Shown: positions 4,840 through 30,988 of the stretch, in pieces
Position numbering within the stretch: the first letter of the stretch is position 1
Layout of the letters: every line of letters begins with the position of its first letter
IMG/VR virus record: IMGVR_UViG_3300025120_000293
Location: 1-31,712 of that record
Direction: 5' to 3' (one strand)
DNA from: a virus
DNA: 31,712 bases
The notes under the pieces: model-generated
Told to the model about the DNA's origin: nothing
Seen by the model: only the letters and a program-made list of their open reading frames with translations
Databases searched by the model: none
Made by a program: the position numbers and the translations under genes

Positions 4840-4844
4840 AATTA

Positions 4845-5282
4845 TTAATTTTGTTGAACTCTGTTTGCAATGTCAATAATTGCCCTGTAATAAGTTTTCT
4901 CATCATCATCATCATTACTATAAGCAACTCCATTAATGTTGCTTGTAAACACATTAAAATTGTTTGATGTAAGGTCAAAGTAATCTGTTGTAGATGTCTT
5001 AATTAGTTCTAAAATTGATTCTACAATATCATTTACTTGTAATTCTCCACCATCATCAGAAAAGAAAGAAGTAACCACCTCGATTCTTGTAATACATTCA
5101 ACTATAAAATCACTTTGATTTTGATTTGTTTGTGCAGAATCAGCAGAATATACAATTATATAAGGTTCGTTTTGTGAAGATGGAACACGATTATATACAG
5201 GTACATTTGCACCACCATAACTTACATTTCCATTTAAGAGTGTAAATATCTTTTGTCTTATAAATCTTATTGGTTCTTTCAT
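4845..5282 (-). CDS. Tail completion / tail terminator-like protein (DUF3168-like)
   Basis: A 145-residue protein with an N-terminal helix (IRFIRQKIFTLLNG), then VPVYNRVPSSQNEPYIIVYSADS, a strand-rich core and a C-terminal DEKTYYRAIIDIANRV. The pattern P.y..vP....PYI.y is characteristic of DUF3168/tail-terminator proteins, which form a ring that ends tail-tube growth and joins the tail to the head. Its place, as the last of four head-tail joining genes and starting 4 bases inside the HK97 gp10-like gene, is the standard place for this protein. The lysis gene follows after a 5-base gap. Confidence 0.75.
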   Translation of the reverse strand: MKEPIRFIRQKIFTLLNGNVSYGGANVPVYNRVPSSQNEPYIIVYSADSAQTNQNQSDFIVECITRIEVVTSFFSDDGGELQVNDIVESILELIKTSTTDYFDLTSNNFNVFTSNINGVAYSNDDDDEKTYYRAIIDIANRVQQN

Positions 5283-9663: not shown

Positions 9664-10539
9664 TTAATTGTTTTCATTTTCTTGTAGTGCATCGGTAATA
9701 ATTGCAACACTACCTGCTGCAACCAAACTATTTACAACACCACCTTGTCTTTCATTTAAAGTTTCTTCTTTAGGGAAAGGTGCATTTGTGCATCTACAAT
9801 TAATGACATTTGCAGCACTTCCTGAACTATCACCTGGATAACTTAATTCTTCACCACCAACCATAAATTTTTTATCCATATCAACTACTTGACCATTTGC
9901 TTGAATATGATCTATTCTTGTTCTATTATCAAAAGTTGCAATCCATTCTTTTTGAAGATTCTCTTTGCCAAAAACATCAGTAGCACTTTGATTGGTCGCA
10001 TAATTTGCTGCATTAACACTTTCGGTTCTAACGATTCTTTTTGCATTTACAACCGACATATCTTTAAACTTCTTTCTTAATATTCTTCCTGCTTGCACCT
10101 CATTCATTGATTGAAATTCAGGATCTGCCATATATCTTTTTAATGTCTTTATTAATTCTTTTTTACGATTACCACCAACACTCACAACTCTTGCACCTGC
10201 TACTTGACTACCTATATATGCAAACTTTTCATTCCATATATCCTCATATTCGATATGAGTGTTTTTAGTTATGTATTTCTCAAAGTTTTGAGCATACCAC
10301 TTAGCAAACTTATTCCCAACCTCTTGATACAATCCTACATAAAGATTTATTAGATCGCTATCCTTAAATTTAAATTGCAAGTCAGGTATTTGTTTATTGG
10401 CTTTTAAAAACTCATCGATTATTTGATTGTTTTCACTAACAAGATATTTTGTCCATTTCTTGTCTTGTTTTGCTTCTTCAATGTCTAATTGATTAAGCCA
10501 ATCCTTATGATAGTTTTTTTTGAATTTTTTAGTCAGCAT
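9664..10539 (-). CDS. Minor head protein, Mu F-like (head morphogenesis)
   Basis: A 291-residue protein with a charged helical N-terminal 130 residues and the Mu F/SPP1 gp7 domain after that. Diagnostic parts are RIVRTESVNAANYATNQSA, then KEWIATFDNRTRIDHIQANGQ and NVINCRCTNAPFP. These give the R-T-E, the D-R-T-R-x-x-H and the N-C-R-C ends of the domain. Proteins of this family associate with the portal, enter the prohead and are often injected with the DNA. It overlaps the end of the portal gene by 11 bases and precedes the protease. The C-terminal 30 residues include a short hydrophobic segment (VVNSLVAAGSVAIIT). Confidence 0.9.
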   Translation of the reverse strand: MLTKKFKKNYHKDWLNQLDIEEAKQDKKWTKYLVSENNQIIDEFLKANKQIPDLQFKFKDSDLINLYVGLYQEVGNKFAKWYAQNFEKYITKNTHIEYEDIWNEKFAYIGSQVAGARVVSVGGNRKKELIKTLKRYMADPEFQSMNEVQAGRILRKKFKDMSVVNAKRIVRTESVNAANYATNQSATDVFGKENLQKEWIATFDNRTRIDHIQANGQVVDMDKKFMVGGEELSYPGDSSGSAANVINCRCTNAPFPKEETLNERQGGVVNSLVAAGSVAIITDALQENENN

Positions 10540-12739
10540 TTTGAGAAATCCTTTTTGCCCAAGAAATCATTGCTTTACCACCCCAAAGATTATAAGCCAC
10601 ATACCCTTTGTCTTTATAAGGTTGGTTTCTGTAATCCTCTGATATTTTAGCATTATCCTCGTGTCTTGCTAAAAAGCTATTTATTCGTTTTACAGTATCA
10701 AGTGATATTGGTTCTCTATTTGCAAGTTGATTTGCTCGTTTCCAACCAACTTCCGTACCACCCTTAACAACATCACGACCATATTTCTCTCTCCATTCTA
10801 ACATTCTCTTTGCATTGTTAGTAGCACCTTGTGGATAATCATTATAACTTTCGGCTTTAGTTATTGATTTCTTGCTCGACATTGGGTGTCCACTTGGTAA
10901 AAGGTCTGTGTCGTGTTTACCACTTCTAAATTTACCATTACGAAGAACATATAAAAATGAATTTACTCTTGCATAAGCCCATTGATCTTCACTTGTAACA
11001 CTTGGTCTTACTGATGATGGATTGTTTCTATATGCACCTACACCTCTATTGAATACAGTTTGCAAAGTTCTATAAGAAGTTCTTTTTGATTTATTGTCGC
11101 CAACTTTCTCGTTGTGTTCCTCTACCTTGTTTTTAAGACCTGTTTCTACGGCACTTCCAGGTTTTACTGGTTTATCAATATATTCATCTTTAACATCTTG
11201 TCCAATAATCGCAATATAATCTTCGTGTGATGCACACGGCATATAAATAGCATTGCCATTATCATCGTGTGAATGAACACCTGAACAACCAATCGCTTCT
11301 GCTCTTTCACTTGCTTCTGTTTCGGTTGTATAGACATCTCTGCGAACCTCTCTCTTAACATCAAGAAGTTCATCGTAATTTACTTTAACACTTTTAAAAT
11401 CATCTGTAATCACCTCATCTTGTAATGGCATAAGATTCATTGGAATATAGTAATCATTAAGTTTATCATTGTCAGCTTCAACACCATAACTCATTGCTTG
11501 TCTTTTCTCGTTTGGAGTTAGCCACCAAGCTTGACTCATCTGCCCAACAACTTTATCCATTTCTTCTTGCATTTCAGAAATACTTGTGTAATCAAAGTCA
11601 ATGTATAGTTTGTCGCCATAAGCAGGAACTAACCATCTATTTAATTCATCTTTGATTTTATTAAGTTCAGGAATTACTGCATTTTGATACAATGTCTTTT
11701 TAGCTTCGATTACATTGTTGTATGTAGAAGATTCGGTATTGTTTAAAAGAACTGCAGGAACAGAATAAATATTACATAAATCCTTAATACTTGCATTGTA
11801 CTGCTCTATTAGAGATAAATCAGATGCAGACATTCCAAAGTTAATCCAAGATAATTTCTTTGGTGTTATTACAATATCACCTGCACTATTAGAACCTTGA
11901 TAGTTTTGTCTAAACTTCTCTTTTAATTGTTGTGCTTGAACTTCATTAATATCCCCCTCATCACTCATAAGCACACCTCTTGCAGTTTGATTCTGTAAAT
12001 ACTTCGCACCAGTTGTAACTGCTTCGTTATTCGTATCTAATGATCTTAAACCTGCTTTAAGTGGCGACATTCCGTACAAATGACTACCAGTTCCATCATA
12101 ATAAGGGTTAAAATCTTTAATGTGGCAAATATCCTCTGCTGCCATCTTATATTGCCCATTGTACTCTAATGAATATGATTTAATTGGATCAAATATTCCA
12201 CCACTATTAATCTCTACCTTTTGACTTGGTAATACATATAATTCTTTGAATTTACCTTTATTAGCACCTGTATCAGGTTTTAAGCCATAGATATAACGAT
12301 TACCAGTTAGTTTACCAAAAGCTATTATCTCTTGAATCCAAGCATTGTATGATTGTGCAGGATTAGGTCTTGATAGTAAATCGTGTAGTTCTGTATCTGC
12401 TACTTCTTCAAGAGCGTGTTTTCTTAAAACCTCTGCTTTGTGTAATGCAGAACCATTAGCGATACCACTTGTCATTGCTTTGTATCTCTTTAACTCATTC
12501 TCACTTTTAATCTCATATATCTGAAATGGAATTGTTGCTGCCGTTTTCGCAATAAGATTTACAATAGAATAAATAGTTGTGTTGTATTGATACCCTTTTT
12601 CGATGTATGTGCTATCGTTTTCAGGATTCCAAATAATACTATTCCCTATGTAGTTATATATCGCTTTATTAAACTCTGCATTAGTTTGTTGAAAATTTTT
12701 TGATACGAGTTTCTGAAATCTTGATAATATTGATGCCAT
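10529..12739 (-). CDS. Portal protein, HK97 type, with a long C-terminal extension
   Basis: A 736-residue protein. Residues 1 to about 450 are a normal HK97-family portal: GYQYNTTIYSIVNLIAKTAATIPFQIYE, LLSRPNPAQSYNAW, GNRYIYGLKP, GMSPLKAGLRSLD and GRNYQ/GSNSAGDIVITP-type segments, then PNEKRQAMSYG at the end. Residues from about 480 onwards are extra. They include AIGCSGVHSHDDNGNAIYMPCASH (a possible Cys/His metal site) and two globular segments, one with FNRGVGAYRNN...RVNSFLYVLRNG...DLLPSGHP and one with SYNDYPQGATNNAKRMLEW...KRANQLANREPI...YNLWGGKAMISWA. These extra segments also occur in other phage head proteins as far as I recall. The portal forms the DNA gate and packaging ring. The large terminase gene lies upstream with a 30-base gap. 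Confidence 0.92.
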   Translation of the reverse strand: MASILSRFQKLVSKNFQQTNAEFNKAIYNYIGNSIIWNPENDSTYIEKGYQYNTTIYSIVNLIAKTAATIPFQIYEIKSENELKRYKAMTSGIANGSALHKAEVLRKHALEEVADTELHDLLSRPNPAQSYNAWIQEIIAFGKLTGNRYIYGLKPDTGANKGKFKELYVLPSQKVEINSGGIFDPIKSYSLEYNGQYKMAAEDICHIKDFNPYYDGTGSHLYGMSPLKAGLRSLDTNNEAVTTGAKYLQNQTARGVLMSDEGDINEVQAQQLKEKFRQNYQGSNSAGDIVITPKKLSWINFGMSASDLSLIEQYNASIKDLCNIYSVPAVLLNNTESSTYNNVIEAKKTLYQNAVIPELNKIKDELNRWLVPAYGDKLYIDFDYTSISEMQEEMDKVVGQMSQAWWLTPNEKRQAMSYGVEADNDKLNDYYIPMNLMPLQDEVITDDFKSVKVNYDELLDVKREVRRDVYTTETEASERAEAIGCSGVHSHDDNGNAIYMPCASHEDYIAIIGQDVKDEYIDKPVKPGSAVETGLKNKVEEHNEKVGDNKSKRTSYRTLQTVFNRGVGAYRNNPSSVRPSVTSEDQWAYARVNSFLYVLRNGKFRSGKHDTDLLPSGHPMSSKKSITKAESYNDYPQGATNNAKRMLEWREKYGRDVVKGGTEVGWKRANQLANREPISLDTVKRINSFLARHEDNAKISEDYRNQPYKDKGYVAYNLWGGKAMISWAKRISQNAD

Positions 12740-22553: not shown

Positions 22554-22581
22554 AAAATATTTTCAATATAAAAAAATATTT
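22554..22581. promoter_or_regulatory. AT-rich element shared with 15015..15052
   Basis: The plus strand reads AAATATTTT then CAATATA, a run of A and TATTTA. On the minus strand AAATATTTT and AAAATATTT make a 9-bp inverted repeat around TTTATATTG. Bases 15026..15052 repeat the same order with one extra base on each side of the comparison. It lies about 14 bases before the ATG at 22540 and may be an operator or a weak terminator after the tail operon. Confidence 0.45.
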
Positions 22582-23917
22582 ATTCAAATTTATATAAATC
22601 AAAACTTGCTATATCATCATCTTGATTAGGTAAGTGCATAACAATTCTATATTGATTTTGCTTCACATCATACTCTAAACTATCAATCATAGCACTAACT
22701 GGTTCTTGTAAAACAGTAGTTCCAAAATTAACCCACAATTTGTGATAAAAATATATAGGAACAACATCAGCATCATCTTTATAAAAAGAACCCTCATATT
22801 GTTTTATTGGCAAACGATAATCATTTATTATTTCTTGTAATACACACTTATCTAATGTATTGGTGTTAAAAACATCTAAAGGTCTATCTTTTCTTGTAAA
22901 TGTACCTTGAATTGAATTTGTATCTCCTAAATCGAGTTCATTTGATAATATTGTAGATGGTTGTTTGTATTCACCAGTAACATTATCATCAGCTTCAGTT
23001 ATTGATCCATCAATAATCTTAAATTGATTGCCCCTCCTCCTTGTGTGTAATCTTGTTTTAGTGCTTGATTTTTCACTAATTGAAACACCATCAAAAAAAG
23101 CTGCTGCACCAAAATTTCCAGATGCAGACATAGCGAAAAGTTTAAATTCAATATGTGGATTTGTTTCAGATGCCAGTAAATTAGTTTGTATTATTGTTGA
23201 GTATTTATTCCACGAATTAAATTGAGTATAATCTATTTTTCTAAAGAATCTGTCATCTGTAAATGCAATAGCACCACCACCCTCACCACAAGAGCCACAA
23301 GCTGCTCTAAATTTGTTTTCTTCAAAATCATACATTTTGTTAATCGTTCCATCATTTGTTGAATCAAGACCTAAACTCATATATTGATTAACTCCAACTG
23401 CACCGATTCCAGGTAATGTTTCAACTCTATAATTCCAACTAATTTCTAAATCTTTACCACTGTTAATTCTCGTATCGCTTAATATGTTTTTTAACATATG
23501 TGTAGTTTTTTCTTGAGTACTACTTCCAAATGGAACTACAACTAAAGCACTTTGAAATAAACAGTAAATACCTGATATTGGGTTTACTCTTGAATAAACA
23601 CCACTTGGTATTGCAATGACTGCTTTTGAAGCAGTTATGTTCCAATTAAAACTATTGTATCTAAAATTTGGATTTTTATTAATTAAAGACATCGCTTTAA
23701 TTTTAGTGGTCTTTATTGCATCTCTAAGTGGTCTTATATACTCAACTATTAAATCTGAATTTATAGGTGCTAAATTGCTTGGGATTTGCTTTAAAACATC
23801 TTTGCTTTGTTTTAATGTTGTTTTTGCATTGCCATCTTTATCGTAAACAAAAAACTCTATATTTTCAGTGCCATTTTGTTGAAGTAATCTTGTTTGCTCA
23901 TCTCTAAATATACCCAT
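22580..23917 (-). CDS. Distal tail / baseplate-type structural protein (445 aa)
   Basis: A 445-residue protein at the end of the tail operon. Recognisable parts are SRVNPISGIYCLFQSALVVVPFGSS, then a segment with a Cys/Gly-rich loop (AACGSCGEGGGAIAF), then a beta-rich domain with FKLFAMSASGNFGAAAFFDGVSI that resembles a carbohydrate-binding jelly-roll (a DDGVSI-type end strand), and a C-terminal half with YEGSFYKDDADVVPIYFYHKLWVNFGTTVL. The position after the hub protein and the length suit a receptor-binding or baseplate protein. I cannot name the family. A -7 box (23922..23929) stands 4 bases before the ATG, so it may also be expressed on its own. Confidence 0.6.
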   Translation of the reverse strand: MGIFRDEQTRLLQQNGTENIEFFVYDKDGNAKTTLKQSKDVLKQIPSNLAPINSDLIVEYIRPLRDAIKTTKIKAMSLINKNPNFRYNSFNWNITASKAVIAIPSGVYSRVNPISGIYCLFQSALVVVPFGSSTQEKTTHMLKNILSDTRINSGKDLEISWNYRVETLPGIGAVGVNQYMSLGLDSTNDGTINKMYDFEENKFRAACGSCGEGGGAIAFTDDRFFRKIDYTQFNSWNKYSTIIQTNLLASETNPHIEFKLFAMSASGNFGAAAFFDGVSISEKSSTKTRLHTRRRGNQFKIIDGSITEADDNVTGEYKQPSTILSNELDLGDTNSIQGTFTRKDRPLDVFNTNTLDKCVLQEIINDYRLPIKQYEGSFYKDDADVVPIYFYHKLWVNFGTTVLQEPVSAMIDSLEYDVKQNQYRIVMHLPNQDDDIASFDLYKFE

Positions 23918-23921
23918 AACA

Positions 23922-23929
23922 CAAATTTA
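23922..23929 (-). promoter_or_regulatory. Candidate -7 box (TAAATTTG) 4 nt before ATG 23917
   Basis: It reads TAAATTTG TGTT ATG on the minus strand, partly overlapping the stop region of the glycosyltransferase-like gene (stop at 23927). It would give independent expression of the 445-residue tail protein. Confidence 0.4.
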
Positions 23930-24835
23930 CAATATTTGTTTAACAAGTTCGTAATACTTAAAAGATGCTAAACTTGGATTTATTTCTAAATCCTTTGGTG
24001 GTTTTTTGTTTAAATATTTTGCTTTATAAAACTCCTTGTTTTTATCGTTGTTTATTCCTGCATTATGAAAGATTGAATTAGTACCCCACGAATTCACATT
24101 GTCTGTTGCCCAAGTAAAATCTAATTCTTTAATAACTTCAGTATTAATATCTCTTTTCCAAAGATTCCAAAGAACTGCCCACATATCAGCACACCAAATT
24201 TGTAATGGGTGGTGTCTGTCATCTTTTGCAATTTTTTGTGTATTTAGTGCAACAACTTTTTCAAATAAGTTTTCGCAATCCTTTTCAACTTCTTCCCAAA
24301 ACTCAAAGTCAATGTTTTTTAATATATAATGACAACCACCTGATTTATCTTGATTTTGTTTAACAATCTCTTTATCAATGCTTGCCACATTACACATTAA
24401 ATTTAAAACATCTTCACCTTTAGACAAAATATAATCGTGTCCTATATAGCTTATTGTATCGCTTAAATAACAAGTTGGATTGCAACCACACAAGTAATGA
24501 TCTATTTGCAATGGTTTTGTTAAAGCTATATCGCAATCGTGATACATAAAAGTTCCTTTATATAAATCAGCATATCTGTAAAAGTGTTTTTTTAATATGT
24601 GTGGTCGAACACTTGAAATGTATTTAATGTTTTCTCTTGTATCGGGGTAAAAGTAAAAATTTACATTTGGATATTTTTGAGTTAAATAAAAGCAAGGTAA
24701 ATCGCCATTTGGTTTATCAGAAAAAATAATATCTATTTGTTCAGCTTTTATACCATTATTTAAAAAGCTATGTATCATAACATCAACTTGCCAAGAATAA
24801 TAAATGGTTGATGGTTGGCAACAAATGTATCTCAT
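23927..24835 (-). CDS. Glycosyltransferase-like protein (GT-A type) in the tail operon
   Basis: A 302-residue protein with no signal peptide or membrane segment. The N-terminus (YICCQPSTIYYSWQVDVMIH and SFLNNG) looks like the first nucleotide-sugar-binding strand and helix. MYHDCDIALTKPL contains a D100-C-D102 metal-binding motif in the D-x-D position of GT-A enzymes. DDRHHPLQIWCADMWAVLWNLWK and WGTNSIFHNAGI suit acceptor and pyrophosphate-side elements. From memory, the W-Q...HSF and D-x-D...P pattern recalls peptide O-glycosyltransferases of the GT95/GT96 type, but that needs a search. The gene starts 3 bases after the hub protein stops, whose Thr/Pro-rich linkers are good O-glycosylation substrates. 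Other substrates (host wall, teichoic-type polymer, DNA) are possible. Confidence 0.65.
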   Translation of the reverse strand: MRYICCQPSTIYYSWQVDVMIHSFLNNGIKAEQIDIIFSDKPNGDLPCFYLTQKYPNVNFYFYPDTRENIKYISSVRPHILKKHFYRYADLYKGTFMYHDCDIALTKPLQIDHYLCGCNPTCYLSDTISYIGHDYILSKGEDVLNLMCNVASIDKEIVKQNQDKSGGCHYILKNIDFEFWEEVEKDCENLFEKVVALNTQKIAKDDRHHPLQIWCADMWAVLWNLWKRDINTEVIKELDFTWATDNVNSWGTNSIFHNAGINNDKNKEFYKAKYLNKKPPKDLEINPSLASFKYYELVKQIL

Positions 24836-24838
24836 ATT

Positions 24839-27800
24839 TTATGGACAACCAGGACAAGTTGCAGTTGTTAATGTGTTTCCATTCCAAAAGAATAAATTAC
24901 CACTTGCATTTATGTAATTACCTGCACCAAGAAATACAGTACAATCAGAATTTGTAAACACGGCACTTGCAGTTGCTATAGAGTTTGAATTAATATATAT
25001 TGTTATTGATTTAGAACCACAACAAGCATTAAGTGCAGATGTTGTAACTGCTGCTTGAATTGCAGTACAAGGTGCTTGTGTTGTTGTTGGTGCTTGTGTT
25101 GTTGTTGTGCTAATATATGCATTACAAGCAGCACAGTCATCAGCTAAAACTCCCGTATTAAAACCTAAAAATAAATCTACATCACCATTTGTACCTGCAC
25201 CTCCATCTTGTAGTGATTTGTAACATAATGTTCCATCTGTAATAACTGTTGGAAAACTATTTGTTTGATTTGATACCTCTATTATTGTATCATCTGCACT
25301 ACAATTAGATTGTAAACTTTGATAAATTCTATAAAATATAGATGGTTGTGTTGTAGTGGTTGTCGTTGGCACTTGTGTCGTTGTAGATATACCTAAACAA
25401 TCATCACAAGTTGTAAAACCTGTCGCAAATTTACTTGTAGGGAAACAACCTAAATTAAATTCATTATCACTTTGAATATTTGGTGTTCTGTCAATAAATG
25501 TCCAACAATCGTTATTTGAAATTTGTTTTACAAATTGTGGAAATTCATTTTTATTGTTTCCAATAACCTCTATTCTGTCATCACCACACTTTAAATATCT
25601 TGCAAAAGATGTCATTGTTGGACAAGTTTCACTTGGTGTTGGTTTAACTGTATCACAAGAAACATTAATTGTAATAGTTAAAGTTTCGGTTGTACTTACT
25701 TCTTCAAGTATTGTAAAACAATCATTTGTTTGGACACTTAAAACAACCCTTTGACCAACACTAAAGTTTGCATTATATTGAACTGTTAATCTATCTTGTG
25801 AATTGTCTTTCTCAACTAAAAATCCATTAGGTGTTACAATATCATCATCACAAGGTGAACAACTTGCTGTATTTAAAAGGTTAGTTCCATTAAATTGTCT
25901 ATAATTAATTAAATCCTCTGATAAGAATTGAGCTGATGTAAGTGTTGTACAAGTATCATCAATAAATACTTTTGTTGTGTTAGTGTTATCAGTAAACGAT
26001 TCACCATTTATATAAAATGTTCTTGATGTTGGAGTTTTACAACATAAGTTATCAGCAGTATCTGATCTATATAATGTGATTGCTTTACAAGTTACTGCTA
26101 CTGTTGTAGATGGTTCAGGTTCAGGAGTATCAGCACAAGCACCACTAATTGTTGCAAGACCTGTTAAACTTACCAATGATTGTCCTATTGATATAATATA
26201 ACAATCATTACCTGTTGATGAAATTATAACCTCATCTCCTACTGCTTTAGAAGCATCATAAGGAACTGAAACAGATGTACTATCTACTAATTTTCTTAAT
26301 CTCCAAGAATTCCAAGTATATTGTTCTCTTTGTCCTGCCGTTGGTACACTTTCACCTGTCGTGTTAATTGCATAAGCATTAAAATAGTGTGCAACACCTG
26401 CAGTTAATGTAAGTGATGGACTTGTAACACTTGTTGTGTTTAAACTAAAACTTAAAACACCTGATATATTTTGACCTGTTGCAACTTGTATTTTTCTATT
26501 TTTAGTGTAATCGTTTCCATCAGTTCCAAAGTAAAAACCATATTCAGTAACATTGCTTGTTCCTACATCTGTAATTTTACCTTTTACAGTCATAGATGTA
26601 TTTTTTACATCACTATTAGCAATTAATTCATTTGTTACACTTGGACTTGCAGATGGTGGTTGTGTTGTAGGTGCAACTGCACCTGGTGTATAATTAATTC
26701 TATCACCAACACCCTCAGTAAAAATATTTGTTTTGACATAAGCAGCAATAAAATATGTTTCTCCAGTAATTAAACCTGTTTGATTAGATGAATAACTTGC
26801 ATTTGTGCCTGTTGAAAAAACTTTCGAATTTGATTCTATAATAGGGTTTGTTCCAAAATAAAAACCTTTTTCAATTACATCTAACCCTCTGTCATTTGTT
26901 ATCGTGGCATTTAAAGTTACACTTGTTGATGTTGTATTTGTAACATCATTGGTTGTAACTAAAGGATTTAATATCGTTTGATTTTGATTAGTTTCTCCAG
27001 TTTGACCTGCTGATAATGCTTTGTCATAATAATTACTATTTGAAACAACATACCAACTCGCATTTGCTTGATAAACTCTTGAATTTGTTATTCTTAAAAT
27101 ATTTTCTAAAACTTTTTTTGATGAAAGTTTTGCAAAATTATCAGTAAATGCAAATTCATTAATACTTATATTTTGAAATAAATTATTATCACCTGTAATA
27201 ACTGATCCTGCAAGTGTGGTATAACGTATATTATTTTGTATAAAAATGTCAAAATCTAAGCCAGTAAATGACAATATTTTATGTAAATAATAAAATGCAG
27301 AATCTAAATTAGTTTGATCGGTTGCACCAACTTTAATTGAACCATCTGTATTAGTTTCAATTTTACCATCAGGTACTAAATAAGAATCAAGAGTTCCTAA
27401 GTTATCTATTGCTCTTAAACTTATATCAAATGGTTTTGATTGTATTGCTTCTTGAAATGTGTCAGAAACTAAAAACCCCTCCCAATAAACTTGAAATATT
27501 GTAGATGCTGCCCAATTAAAATCTGTTTCTTGCCAATTTGTATCTGCAAGTTGCCAAAGTGGTGAATTAATATCAGCAGCTTCATCTTCAACTCCAATAT
27601 TAACCCTAACCTTGTATTCTCTTTCATCAAAATTTATAAACTCATCATAAGAAATTGTTTCAGTAGTTTTAATATTTAATATACAAGAAGAACCGATTAT
27701 CGGATTGTAAAAATCCTCATCATTAGTATATGTAATTATAACTGGGTTATCAGTACCTACGATAGCAAGTACATCTCCAACATAATCCTTTTTTAGAATT

Positions 27801-27865
27801 TGGACACTTCTTTTATTTCCCTTGATGTCTGAAAAATCAAGTTCATATTTAACTCCGTAAGCCAT
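24839..27865 (-). CDS. Large tail hub/tip protein with FN3-like repeats and Cys-rich modules (1008 aa)
   Basis: A 1008-residue tail protein next to the tape measure. Residues 1 to about 295 are a compact region (YELDFSDIKGNKRSVQILKK, FQVYWEGFLVSDTFQEAI, KPFDISLRAIDNLGTL) like the hub or tail-tip domains of siphophages. Residues about 298 to 392 and 409 to 510 are two FN3/Ig-like repeats (VTLNATITNDRGLDVIEKGFYFGT and MTVKGKITDVGTSNVTEYGFYFGT). From about 540 to 1008 the protein is a chain of Cys-rich modules with 26 Cys, separated by linkers such as EPEPSTT, KPTPSET, TTTQVPTTTTTTQP (about 826 to 840) and TTTTQAPTTTQAP (about 919 to 931). The first 550 residues have one Cys. It likely recognises the host surface. 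It shares one base with the tape measure gene. Confidence 0.75.
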   Translation of the reverse strand: MAYGVKYELDFSDIKGNKRSVQILKKDYVGDVLAIVGTDNPVIITYTNDEDFYNPIIGSSCILNIKTTETISYDEFINFDEREYKVRVNIGVEDEAADINSPLWQLADTNWQETDFNWAASTIFQVYWEGFLVSDTFQEAIQSKPFDISLRAIDNLGTLDSYLVPDGKIETNTDGSIKVGATDQTNLDSAFYYLHKILSFTGLDFDIFIQNNIRYTTLAGSVITGDNNLFQNISINEFAFTDNFAKLSSKKVLENILRITNSRVYQANASWYVVSNSNYYDKALSAGQTGETNQNQTILNPLVTTNDVTNTTSTSVTLNATITNDRGLDVIEKGFYFGTNPIIESNSKVFSTGTNASYSSNQTGLITGETYFIAAYVKTNIFTEGVGDRINYTPGAVAPTTQPPSASPSVTNELIANSDVKNTSMTVKGKITDVGTSNVTEYGFYFGTDGNDYTKNRKIQVATGQNISGVLSFSLNTTSVTSPSLTLTAGVAHYFNAYAINTTGESVPTAGQREQYTWNSWRLRKLVDSTSVSVPYDASKAVGDEVIISSTGNDCYIISIGQSLVSLTGLATISGACADTPEPEPSTTVAVTCKAITLYRSDTADNLCCKTPTSRTFYINGESFTDNTNTTKVFIDDTCTTLTSAQFLSEDLINYRQFNGTNLLNTASCSPCDDDIVTPNGFLVEKDNSQDRLTVQYNANFSVGQRVVLSVQTNDCFTILEEVSTTETLTITINVSCDTVKPTPSETCPTMTSFARYLKCGDDRIEVIGNNKNEFPQFVKQISNNDCWTFIDRTPNIQSDNEFNLGCFPTSKFATGFTTCDDCLGISTTTQVPTTTTTTQPSIFYRIYQSLQSNCSADDTIIEVSNQTNSFPTVITDGTLCYKSLQDGGAGTNGDVDLFLGFNTGVLADDCAACNAYISTTTTQAPTTTQAPCTAIQAAVTTSALNACCGSKSITIYINSNSIATASAVFTNSDCTVFLGAGNYINASGNLFFWNGNTLTTATCPGCP

Positions 27866-29805
27866 TATTTAAATCTATTTCTGTTTCGTTCTGCTCTTTG
27901 TAAAGCAACTACTAAATCTTGACCTCTTAAAACAAACTCTCCTTGCATTGCACCACCACTGTTCCCTAACATACCTTTTAATTTATTTAATGGTGCTATA
28001 ACCTCAGGGTTTGATCTTGCACCAGGATATTCTCCAACTAAAGCATTTGTTGGACCTGAATAAATCCCTCCTTTTGCATTAGGTACTGGCGACATCATAC
28101 TTCCCATACCACTTAATGCAGCAAAAACTGTTCTAAAATCTAAACCAAAAACTGCACCTATTATAGCTGACAATGCTGCTGCCACTAATAATCTTTTTAT
28201 TAATGCTTCAAGTTGTTGCCCTATTTTTTTGAAAGCATCTTCACCCTCACTTAAATTAGCAAAAGAATCTACTAAAGTTGATCCAATAGTAGTTGCAAAA
28301 GCCATTATCATTTGATTGTTTTTCTTTAATTCTTTACCTAAAGGTATAATGGCAGTTGTTGTCAAATCTCTCATTGAAAAACCTATATCTCCAAATACAG
28401 TAGTAAAATCTAATTCTGTTTTAAACCCCTTAACTGTATCAACAAAACCAATTTTTAATTTATCAGGTAAATCTCTTGTAAAAAACTTGTCAAAATCAAG
28501 CATTTTAGTAAAATCTATCTTACTTCCTGTTGCACCTCCACCACCTCCGTTATCTCCACTTGGCTTACTTGGGATAATTGGCAAAGATTTTGGTTTCATA
28601 CCTAAAAAACCAAGAGGATCTGTAAATGCTTGTGGTGGTATAGTTAATTTATTTACTGTTCTTGTAATTTCATCTTGCAAATCTGTTAATTGCTTTCTTG
28701 CTTCTACAGTTTTTAATTTAAATATCTCAGCAGGTGCAGTTTGTGCTTTACCAATTTGTGTCAATACATCTTTAATTGATACACCAAATGAATCCATAGC
28801 TAATGCTATACCCCCAATAATTCCAACAACCAAAGCACCACCACTTCCAAATATTGCAGCAAGAGTTGCACCTACCCCTTTAATTGCTAATGAAAATCTT
28901 CTCATTAAACCAATACCAATAGCAATTAGACCACCTTTAGCTATTAACTCTATTAAATTAAATGTAGCACCTTTAACTTCAGGGCTTAAATCTTTAAATG
29001 CTTGTGTTGATTTTCTTATTTCACTTGTAAGTTTTGGAATCCCATTTTTTAAATCTAAAATTTCAACTATTTCTTGACCAAGTTCAGCAAGTGCTATATT
29101 AACATTGTCTTTTAATGTAGAAAACAAACCATTAATTGTTTTACTTAATGTTTTCATTCCACCCTCAAACTTACCTCCCTCACTTGTTGCATTTATAAAA
29201 GCATTATTTAATATGTCAAAGGTTATTTTACCCTCTGACGCCATATCCATTATCTCACCCCTTGCAACCCCCATAGAATTGGCTAAAATGTCTAATATAG
29301 GAACTCCGTTGTTTATGAATTGTCTTAAATCCCTTGTCATTACCCTGCCCTCTGCTGCTGCTTGACCAAATGCAATTCCTATACTTTGTAAATCACCACC
29401 AACAATTCCTGCAATATCACCAAGCATTGATAAACTATTAAAAGCATCGTTAGTTGATAAACCAAATCCCATTAACATATTATTCACTTTAACTAATTCA
29501 TCTAATTGAAATGGTGTTTCTGCACTAAATTTAACCAATCTTTCAAATGCTTCTGCACCTGCTTCTACTGATCCTGTTAAAGTATTTAAAGTAGTTTGTA
29601 ATCTTTCAAATTTTGCAGCTTGTCTTACTGCTATACCTCCTGCTGCAACTAAAGGTGCAGTAAATTGCATTGTTATTTGTTTACCTACTTTTCCTGCAGT
29701 TTTTGCAAAGTTATCTAATCTTGTTGATGATTTTTTTAAAGCAATATCAAAATTTCTTGTATTAGCAATAAAGTCGAATCGTAATTTGTGATTTTGGTCT
29801 GCCAT
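27865..29805 (-). CDS. Tail tape measure protein
   Basis: A 646-residue protein that sets tail length and is probably injected with the DNA. The N-terminus has the tape-measure domain pattern ARNFDIALKKSSTRLDNFAKTAGKVGKQITMQFTAPLVAAGG, then LVKVNNMLMGFGLSTNDAFNSLSMLGDIAGIVGGD and GVPILDILANSMGVARGEI, as in TMP_2-type proteins. The middle has hydrophobic segments (GATLAAIFGSGGALVVGIIGGIAL) that could cross the host membrane, and a Gly-rich linker SGDNGGGGGATGS near residues 415 to 430. The C-terminus has GGIYSGPTNALVGEYPGAR. It follows the frameshifting assembly chaperone and has a -7 box 4 bases before its ATG. At 646 residues it predicts a rather short tail (rule of about 1.5 angstrom per residue, roughly 95 nm). 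Confidence 0.93.
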   Translation of the reverse strand: MADQNHKLRFDFIANTRNFDIALKKSSTRLDNFAKTAGKVGKQITMQFTAPLVAAGGIAVRQAAKFERLQTTLNTLTGSVEAGAEAFERLVKFSAETPFQLDELVKVNNMLMGFGLSTNDAFNSLSMLGDIAGIVGGDLQSIGIAFGQAAAEGRVMTRDLRQFINNGVPILDILANSMGVARGEIMDMASEGKITFDILNNAFINATSEGGKFEGGMKTLSKTINGLFSTLKDNVNIALAELGQEIVEILDLKNGIPKLTSEIRKSTQAFKDLSPEVKGATFNLIELIAKGGLIAIGIGLMRRFSLAIKGVGATLAAIFGSGGALVVGIIGGIALAMDSFGVSIKDVLTQIGKAQTAPAEIFKLKTVEARKQLTDLQDEITRTVNKLTIPPQAFTDPLGFLGMKPKSLPIIPSKPSGDNGGGGGATGSKIDFTKMLDFDKFFTRDLPDKLKIGFVDTVKGFKTELDFTTVFGDIGFSMRDLTTTAIIPLGKELKKNNQMIMAFATTIGSTLVDSFANLSEGEDAFKKIGQQLEALIKRLLVAAALSAIIGAVFGLDFRTVFAALSGMGSMMSPVPNAKGGIYSGPTNALVGEYPGARSNPEVIAPLNKLKGMLGNSGGAMQGEFVLRGQDLVVALQRAERNRNRFK

Positions 29806-30568: not shown

Positions 30569-30988
30569 TTAGTTTGTAGATTCTACTATTGCACCAGTAA
30601 CTGTGATTGTTCCTGAATAAGTAACTGCTTCTTCCATTGCACCACTTATTTCACAAGAAGAAATAAATCCTTCTCCTGTATAAATCGTATCACCTGTAGC
30701 TGCAGTTCCAAATGAGAAATCACATTTTTGTCTTGTAAGTAGTTTGTGTGCTATTTCTTTACCACCATTAGCATCAGTATAATCAACTAAACCATCAAAA
30801 GAAACTTCTGCTGATCTTAATCCTGCGATTGATTCCGAAAACCCTGCTGAATCTTTTGTAGTAGCAGCAGCCATATCGTTAGTAAAGGAAATCGAACAAC
30901 TTGTAGTGTGTCCTATTGTAGCTGGCGAACCTGCATCATCAGCGATTTTGATTAAAAGGTTAGTACCATTGAAAATTGTTGAAGCCAT
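30569..30988 (-). CDS. Major tail (tube) protein
   Basis: A 139-residue protein of the TP901-1/phage_tail_2 type. Features are STIFNGTNLLIKIADDAGSPATIGHTTSCSISFTNDM, then TTKDSAGFSESIAGLRSAEVSFDGLVDYTD, then CDFSFGTAATGDTIYTGEGFISSCEISG and the last strand EEAVTYSGTITVTGAI. The order T.kds.gf.e...g.r..evs.dg.v matches the family strongly. It stacks in rings to make the tail tube. It is the first tail gene after the small genes at 31018..31279, and the chaperone pair follows. Confidence 0.9.
   Translation of the reverse strand: MASTIFNGTNLLIKIADDAGSPATIGHTTSCSISFTNDMAAATTKDSAGFSESIAGLRSAEVSFDGLVDYTDANGGKEIAHKLLTRQKCDFSFGTAATGDTIYTGEGFISSCEISGAMEEAVTYSGTITVTGAIVESTN

Follow-up and report, generated by a model that had tools for sequence, protein, structure and literature searches.

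Phage virion glycosylation is, to our knowledge, thought to be rare and documented mainly in mycobacteriophages. According to Freeman et al. 2023 (Cell Host Microbe, as presented in PMC11256854, PMC12619734, and PMC12363180), capsid and tail-tube subunits of the mycobacteriophages Che8, Corndog, and Myrna are glycosylated by a phage-encoded glycosyltransferase, reportedly at their C termini. Here, we analyze a 31,712-nucleotide virus record (IMG/VR IMGVR_UViG_3300025120_000293, taken at its full length and called the window below), in which a predicted glycosyltransferase of the protein family phrog_4417 is encoded beside a tail-hub-like protein that contains linkers rich in threonine (Thr) and proline (Pro). 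As in the mycobacteriophages, a phage glycosyltransferase gene is linked to a virion protein with a putative acceptor segment (or tag) of serine and threonine residues, but in the present case the tag directly adjoins the enzyme and travels with it, and a tail hub may be the partner. The 74 phage records that the enzyme matched in tblastn, a comparison at the level of sequence, include no mycobacteriophage.

Two further groups of described systems bear comparison. The retaining GT-A families GT24 (UGGT) and GT8 (LgtC, XXYLT1, and LARGE1) resemble the phage enzyme in the predicted fold, in the DxD motif, and in a C-terminal histidine that is a candidate metal ligand; unlike them, the phage enzyme matches no chain of the PDB by sequence profile. 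The second group consists of glycocin-like clusters in Bacteroidota, apparently for ribosomally synthesized and posttranslationally modified peptides (RiPPs), in which a homologue of the enzyme lies beside cysteine (Cys)-rich precursors with a GG leader, some having TTTTTT or TTTT after the GG. These clusters are cellular, however, with a longer enzyme and with a substrate that is a secreted peptide and not a virion protein. Although virion glycosylation is already known from mycobacteriophages, the phrog_4417 enzyme family and its mobile tag look new, and we found no published link between Thr-rich phage proteins and a glycosyltransferase, or between phrog_4417 and Thr tags, in the literature searched, whose coverage excludes subscription papers and preprints.

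We consider it very likely, judging from sequence comparison and structural models, that the phrog_4417 enzyme is a dedicated peptide O-glycosyltransferase for the Thr-rich tags and linkers of virion proteins, the reaction and the sugar being what we infer. The basis for this reading is the predicted GT-A fold, a conserved catalytic motif, an association between enzyme and tag that holds for partner proteins unrelated to one another, and the joint presence, joint absence, and joint movement of the two.

Linkage of the enzyme to Thr-rich proteins

A total of 175 homologous loci were collected by the enzyme alone, and the neighboring genes, called mechanically, were then scored for Thr-richness. 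In 147 of 170 loci, a Thr-rich gene immediately precedes that of the enzyme. Because the set of Firmicutes prophages (in which 25 of 25 nonredundant upstream proteins have a C-terminal Thr run) is clonal, we rely on counts of families, defined as homology groups built after the tags were masked. By this measure, Thr-rich families make up 19 of the 24 directly upstream, all mutually unrelated, as against 5/30 at position -2, 0/32 at +1 downstream, and 0/33 at +2 (Fisher test for the upstream position, 1e-10 versus +1 and 5e-6 versus -2).

Searching in the reverse direction, we scanned IMG/VR for DNA coding for TTTTAAPTTTT without reference to the enzyme, with 120 loci fetched by a random 14-mer as controls. 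The enzyme is present in 24 of the 120 Thr-rich loci and in none of the 120 random loci (Fisher test, 1.7e-8), and when the comparison is confined to records of at least 40 kb, it occurs in 12/23 Thr-rich records versus 0/21 controls. Wherever the arrangement can be resolved, the Thr-rich gene is the immediate neighbor of the enzyme (21 of 21 cases, 16 upstream and 5 downstream). The co-occurrence of enzyme and Thr/Pro segments raised in the initial annotation of this sequence lies far above controls.

The upstream partners are themselves unrelated: a tail hub in the window, major tail proteins in phiFL1A and 1706, and several kinds of major capsid protein in 4995_1, R3.3, and CHPC836. Partners in the Herelleviridae (Semele and LpeD) are small Thr-rich proteins, that of LpeD being annotated as a glycoprotein. 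In other phages, the tag is out of frame with the protein that it follows. In VPE25 (locus L004, ~7752) and Planchet (L085, ~7772), it is encoded across the stop codon of the capsid gene in the -1 frame, Planchet having a CCCAAAA slippery heptamer at that site; in Arcanobacterium phage TPWB06 (L381, ~3757), it follows a CCC-TAA of the tail protein gene and uses the +1 frame. This layout suggests programmed frameshifting in some phages, where only a fraction of the subunits would be tagged because the tag lies in a shifted frame over the stop.

Joint absence and joint movement of tag and enzyme

Because scans of viral contigs based on the capsid and the hub gave mostly close relatives, named phages were taken as enzyme-free controls, picked for close relatedness and not by tag status. 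In eight such relatives (Silenus, ATCC8014, phiJL-1, PSA, PK5.2, Javan47, WC29P3, and Javan291), with capsid or tail proteins that reach 74% identity to tagged counterparts, the tag occurs in 0 of 15 capsid and tail proteins, and the enzyme was not found anywhere in the whole records. The hub homologue of a ninth relative, phage phi17:1, is untagged, and the enzyme is likewise absent from that record.

Joint movement is seen in the prophages L384 and L385. Their upstream genes, encoding a tail protein in one and a capsid protein in the other, cannot be aligned, yet the two prophages share 94% DNA identity that sets in with the first bases of the tag and extends through the enzyme gene. Tag and enzyme were thus transferred as one piece. 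Loci L439 and L431 repeat this pattern, and in the tree of the enzyme, partner proteins switch inside well-supported clades.

A candidate for joint decay, locus L475 (~4840-4990), has one frame break in the tag gene and one in the enzyme gene, while a different frame still encodes the intact tag; the breaks are probably sequencing errors and not decay, and the locus is unused as evidence. Separately, the capsid and tail proteins of Aeromonas phage AS1 (PV831789.1) are most like those of Lactobacillus plantarum phages, and its host label may be wrong.

Predicted fold and conserved residues of the enzyme

The phrog_4417 hidden Markov model covers residues 1 to 301 of the enzyme; PHROGs assigns no function to this family, to which the name “prophage pi2 protein 34” is also tied. 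Homologues occur in many IMG/VR contigs in addition to the phage records noted above. An AlphaFold2 model built from 35 aligned homologues has high confidence (predicted local distance difference test [pLDDT] score of 94 and predicted template modeling [pTM] score of 0.91), and a Foldseek search of the PDB with this model returned 289 matches at an E value of at most 0.001. The 50 matches listed are nearly all GT-A glycosyltransferases with a probability of 1.00, and among them are UGGT (GT24), XXYLT1, LARGE1, LgtC, and collagen galactosyltransferase. As the sequence-profile search of the PDB found nothing, the assignment to the GT-A fold rests on the structural model.

The D100-C-D102 motif and the lack of a membrane segment (maximum 19-residue hydropathy, 0.73), both described in the initial annotation, hold up, the motif being conserved across some 200 homologues. 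W15 and S125 are likewise conserved in nearly all of the 200 that were aligned, and by analogy with GT8 and GT24 enzymes, H257 is a candidate metal ligand.

The kinship to GT95 that had been suggested from an N-terminal sequence pattern found no support: the Pfam model for hydroxyproline O-arabinosyltransferase (HPAT; PF23452) gave no match at an E value of at most 10, in a search that lacks a positive control, and the general Pfam searches gave no HPAT match either. No Pfam model passes its cutoff for the enzyme; as regards GT96 (peptidyl serine galactosyltransferase), this includes all Pfam glycosyltransferases, in searches made with no model named for that family. PF04488, another candidate, matched one homologue weakly and gave no match in five phages.

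A distant homologue of the enzyme is orf49 of phage LP65 (L486, 225-1107; TM-score of 0.75 and 19% identity). Upstream of it lie orf50 and orf51, both ending in TETQTQTQ-type repeats, so that a diverged enzyme is here accompanied by a different tag; orf51 is annotated as a structural protein by two-dimensional gel electrophoresis and mass spectrometry.

The hub protein and its linkers

The protein encoded beside the enzyme in the window has weak homology (26% over amino acids 1 to 161) to gp59 of Cellulophaga phage phi17:1, which adjoins the tape measure and is annotated as a structural protein; from this homology and from its own position after the tape measure, it is a putative tail hub. The Thr/Pro linkers given in the initial annotation are present, but a fifth (linker 1 in Table 1) had been missed. 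They recur in an alignment of hub relatives: linker 5 is Thr-rich in 20 of 20, with five invariant Thr columns, whereas relatives L014 and L016 have D, E, or P in place of the Thr/Pro residues of linker 4. By composition alone, the densest Thr window (9 Thr in 14 amino acids) is mildly unusual, being equaled in 20 of 2000 shuffles. The AlphaFold2 model of the hub is poor overall (pLDDT of 66 and pTM of 0.28), and for this reason we use only its pattern of order and disorder and its fibronectin type III (FN3)-like modules. In its C-terminal two-thirds, all five linkers coincide with low-confidence stretches (pLDDT below 50) between folded modules.

Together with the predicted GT-A fold, the co-occurrence of enzyme and Thr/Pro segments supports the earlier proposal that the enzyme may glycosylate the hub linkers. 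In the cytoplasm of the infected host, the enzyme would bind a sugar nucleotide and a metal via D100, D102, and H257 and would move the sugar from the nucleotide donor onto threonines of the flexible Thr/Pro linkers of the neighboring hub, before or during tail assembly. All five linkers would presumably be used as acceptors, and in the resulting virion, the spacers that separate the folded hub modules would be coated with sugar. Possible benefits include shielding from proteases or antibodies, keeping the spacers extended, or adhesion; those put forward in the initial annotation were stiff, protease-resistant spacers or mimicry of the host.

Across phages, the Thr-rich tag, as the likely acceptor, and the enzyme form a cassette joined to whichever virion protein lies upstream. 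That this is a mobile virion-glycosylation cassette of siphophages and some Herelleviridae infecting Bacteroidota and Firmicutes (one cassette record names an Arcanobacterium host), which adds a sugar-accepting tag to proteins of the capsid, tail tube, or tail tip (through frameshifting, and then to a fraction of the subunits, in some phages), and with an ancestry shared with RiPP-like peptide-modifying enzymes of Bacteroidota, seems to us probable. Virion glycosylation, for which both the enzyme can be named and the acceptor tag read from the sequence, is accordingly a prediction for many well-studied phages, among them Enterococcus phages phiFL1A and VPE25, Lactococcus phages 1706 and CHPC836, and Lactobacillus phages LpeD and Semele, as well as for environmental Bacteroidota phages. 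A large family without assigned function would thereby gain a testable one, the Thr-rich runs in many phage proteins would be explained, and the enzyme could provide a cytoplasmic system for sugar-tagging proteins in bacteria.

Cellular homologues

Among bacterial genomes, the enzyme has 15 matches, mostly in contigs of Sphingobacterium, Pedobacter, and Chryseobacterium. These homologues, of ~440 to 530 amino acids, lie near small GG-leader, Cys-rich precursor peptides (L363-L375), in clusters that also encode a C39-peptidase/VKOR/thioredoxin protein and thioredoxin-like proteins and, as far as their sequences suggest, transporters of the C39 type and proteins resembling GT2. Two of the GG-leader precursors weakly match a RiPP leader model. 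Precursor cores open with SWTTTTTTSSVP in L372 (5609-5854) and with VSSTSGTTTTEDC in L371 (1948-2172), the Thr run coming right after the GG. As the homologues sit in clusters of GG-leader precursors, some with Thr runs, this setting points to peptides as a substrate of the wider enzyme family, and the clusters may specify undescribed glycopeptides.

Alternative explanations

Several findings weigh against a dedicated peptide O-glycosyltransferase. The TM-scores of the enzyme model to solved structures are only ~0.5, which indicates the same fold but not the same family. Five or six untruncated enzyme loci (L056, L059, L063, L071, L075, and perhaps L073) have no Thr-rich gene in view, and conversely, about half of the Thr-rich viral records of at least 40 kb (11/23) are without the enzyme. 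Of these 11, 5 encode a GT2 or PF11397 enzyme (controls: GT2 in 3/21 and PF11397 in 0/21), yet Thr-rich proteins without any detected glycosyltransferase exist. Most cellular RiPP precursors have just a short Thr/Pro stretch, before the first Cys.

Two of the Thr-rich records without phrog_4417, L192 and L195, have a PF11397 (N-acetylglucosaminyltransferase-like) enzyme, which may take over the task of phrog_4417 in these phages.

The alternative that survives best, which we hold to be possible but rather unlikely, also has the enzyme glycosylating Thr tags, but with the hub not its sole or main target or with other host or phage enzymes extending the first sugar. R3.3, CHPC836, 1706, and phiFL1A have the tag on both capsid and tail proteins, often with identical last residues (TTTTTTHHD on both in 1706; TTTTTTSHA and TTTTTSSHA in R3.3), and only one enzyme gene, and the GT2-like protein in some of the cellular clusters would suit such an extension. 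In the window, however, the Thr density of the hub is unmatched by any other open reading frame (ORF), Thr-dense segments being confined to the hub, and a second glycosyltransferase was not recognized.

It is highly improbable that the Thr runs and the enzyme are co-located without a shared function, the runs being slippage-prone spacers common in tail genes. AC-rich runs can indeed grow by slippage, and the many phages with Thr-rich proteins and no enzyme fit this explanation, but several tags use mixed Thr codons, relatives without the enzyme are also without tags, the adjacency is strict and on one side only, and capsid proteins bear the same tag as tail proteins.

Least credible is the other target allowed for in the initial annotation, a host polymer, here taken to be one of the cell surface (wall teichoic acid, capsule, or lipopolysaccharide), with the place beside tail genes incidental: phage glycosyltransferases that alter host surface antigens are generally known (see also PMC12619734), but this enzyme has no membrane segment, its gene lies in a late structural operon, and tag and enzyme are lost together and moved together. 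What makes such a target unlikely is that the gene stays with the Thr tag even when the partner proteins are unrelated, and does so in phages of both Bacteroidota and Firmicutes, hosts with differing envelopes.

Genomic context in the window

Profile searches with Pfam and PHROGs recognize the genes of a siphophage in the window, all on its minus strand: terminase, portal, head protease, major head protein, major tail protein, and tape measure. After the tape measure come the hub and then the enzyme, and both ORFs lie on the minus strand, 3 bases apart, at the positions first assigned to them (Table 1).

Table 1. Positions in the window of the enzyme, the hub with its linkers, and other tail genes
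Feature	Position	Strand	Evidence or remarks
GT-A-fold glycosyltransferase gene (phrog_4417), 302 aa (amino acids), predicted	23927..24835	-	phrog_4417, E 1.5e-60; AlphaFold2 pLDDT 94; Foldseek
D100-x-D102 metal/nucleotide motif	24530..24538	-	D100 in 200/200 and D102 in 199/200 aligned homologues
H257, HNAG motif, candidate third metal ligand	24065..24067	-	H in 194/194 homologues covering the column
Tail-hub-like protein with Thr/Pro linkers, 1008 aa, proposed substrate	24839..27865	-	directly after tape measure; AlphaFold2 beads-on-a-string, FN3-like modules
Linker 1, AVAPTTQPPSASPSVT, aa 396-411	26633..26680	-	pLDDT<50 at 397-404
Linker 2, TPEPEPSTTVAVT, aa 580-592	26090..26128	-	pLDDT<50 at 579-591
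Linker 3, TVKPTPSET, aa 739-747	25625..25651	-	pLDDT<50 at 742-746
Linker 4, STTTQVPTTTTTTQPS, aa 827-842	25340..25387	-	pLDDT<50 at 828-841
Linker 5, STTTTQAPTTTQAP, aa 919-932	25070..25111	-	pLDDT<50 at 920-930
Tape measure protein	27865..29805	-	PF20155, E 3.3e-34; defines tail module
Major tail protein, without Thr tag	30569..30988	-	phrog_1407, E 2.9e-26; not Thr-rich

For the gene after the enzyme (22580-23917; 445 amino acids), neither Pfam nor PHROGs nor the phage collection gave a match, although in related marine contigs the enzyme is followed by genes of about that length. The portal protein (10529-12739) has a C-terminal extension that matches DUF3721 and DUF5824.

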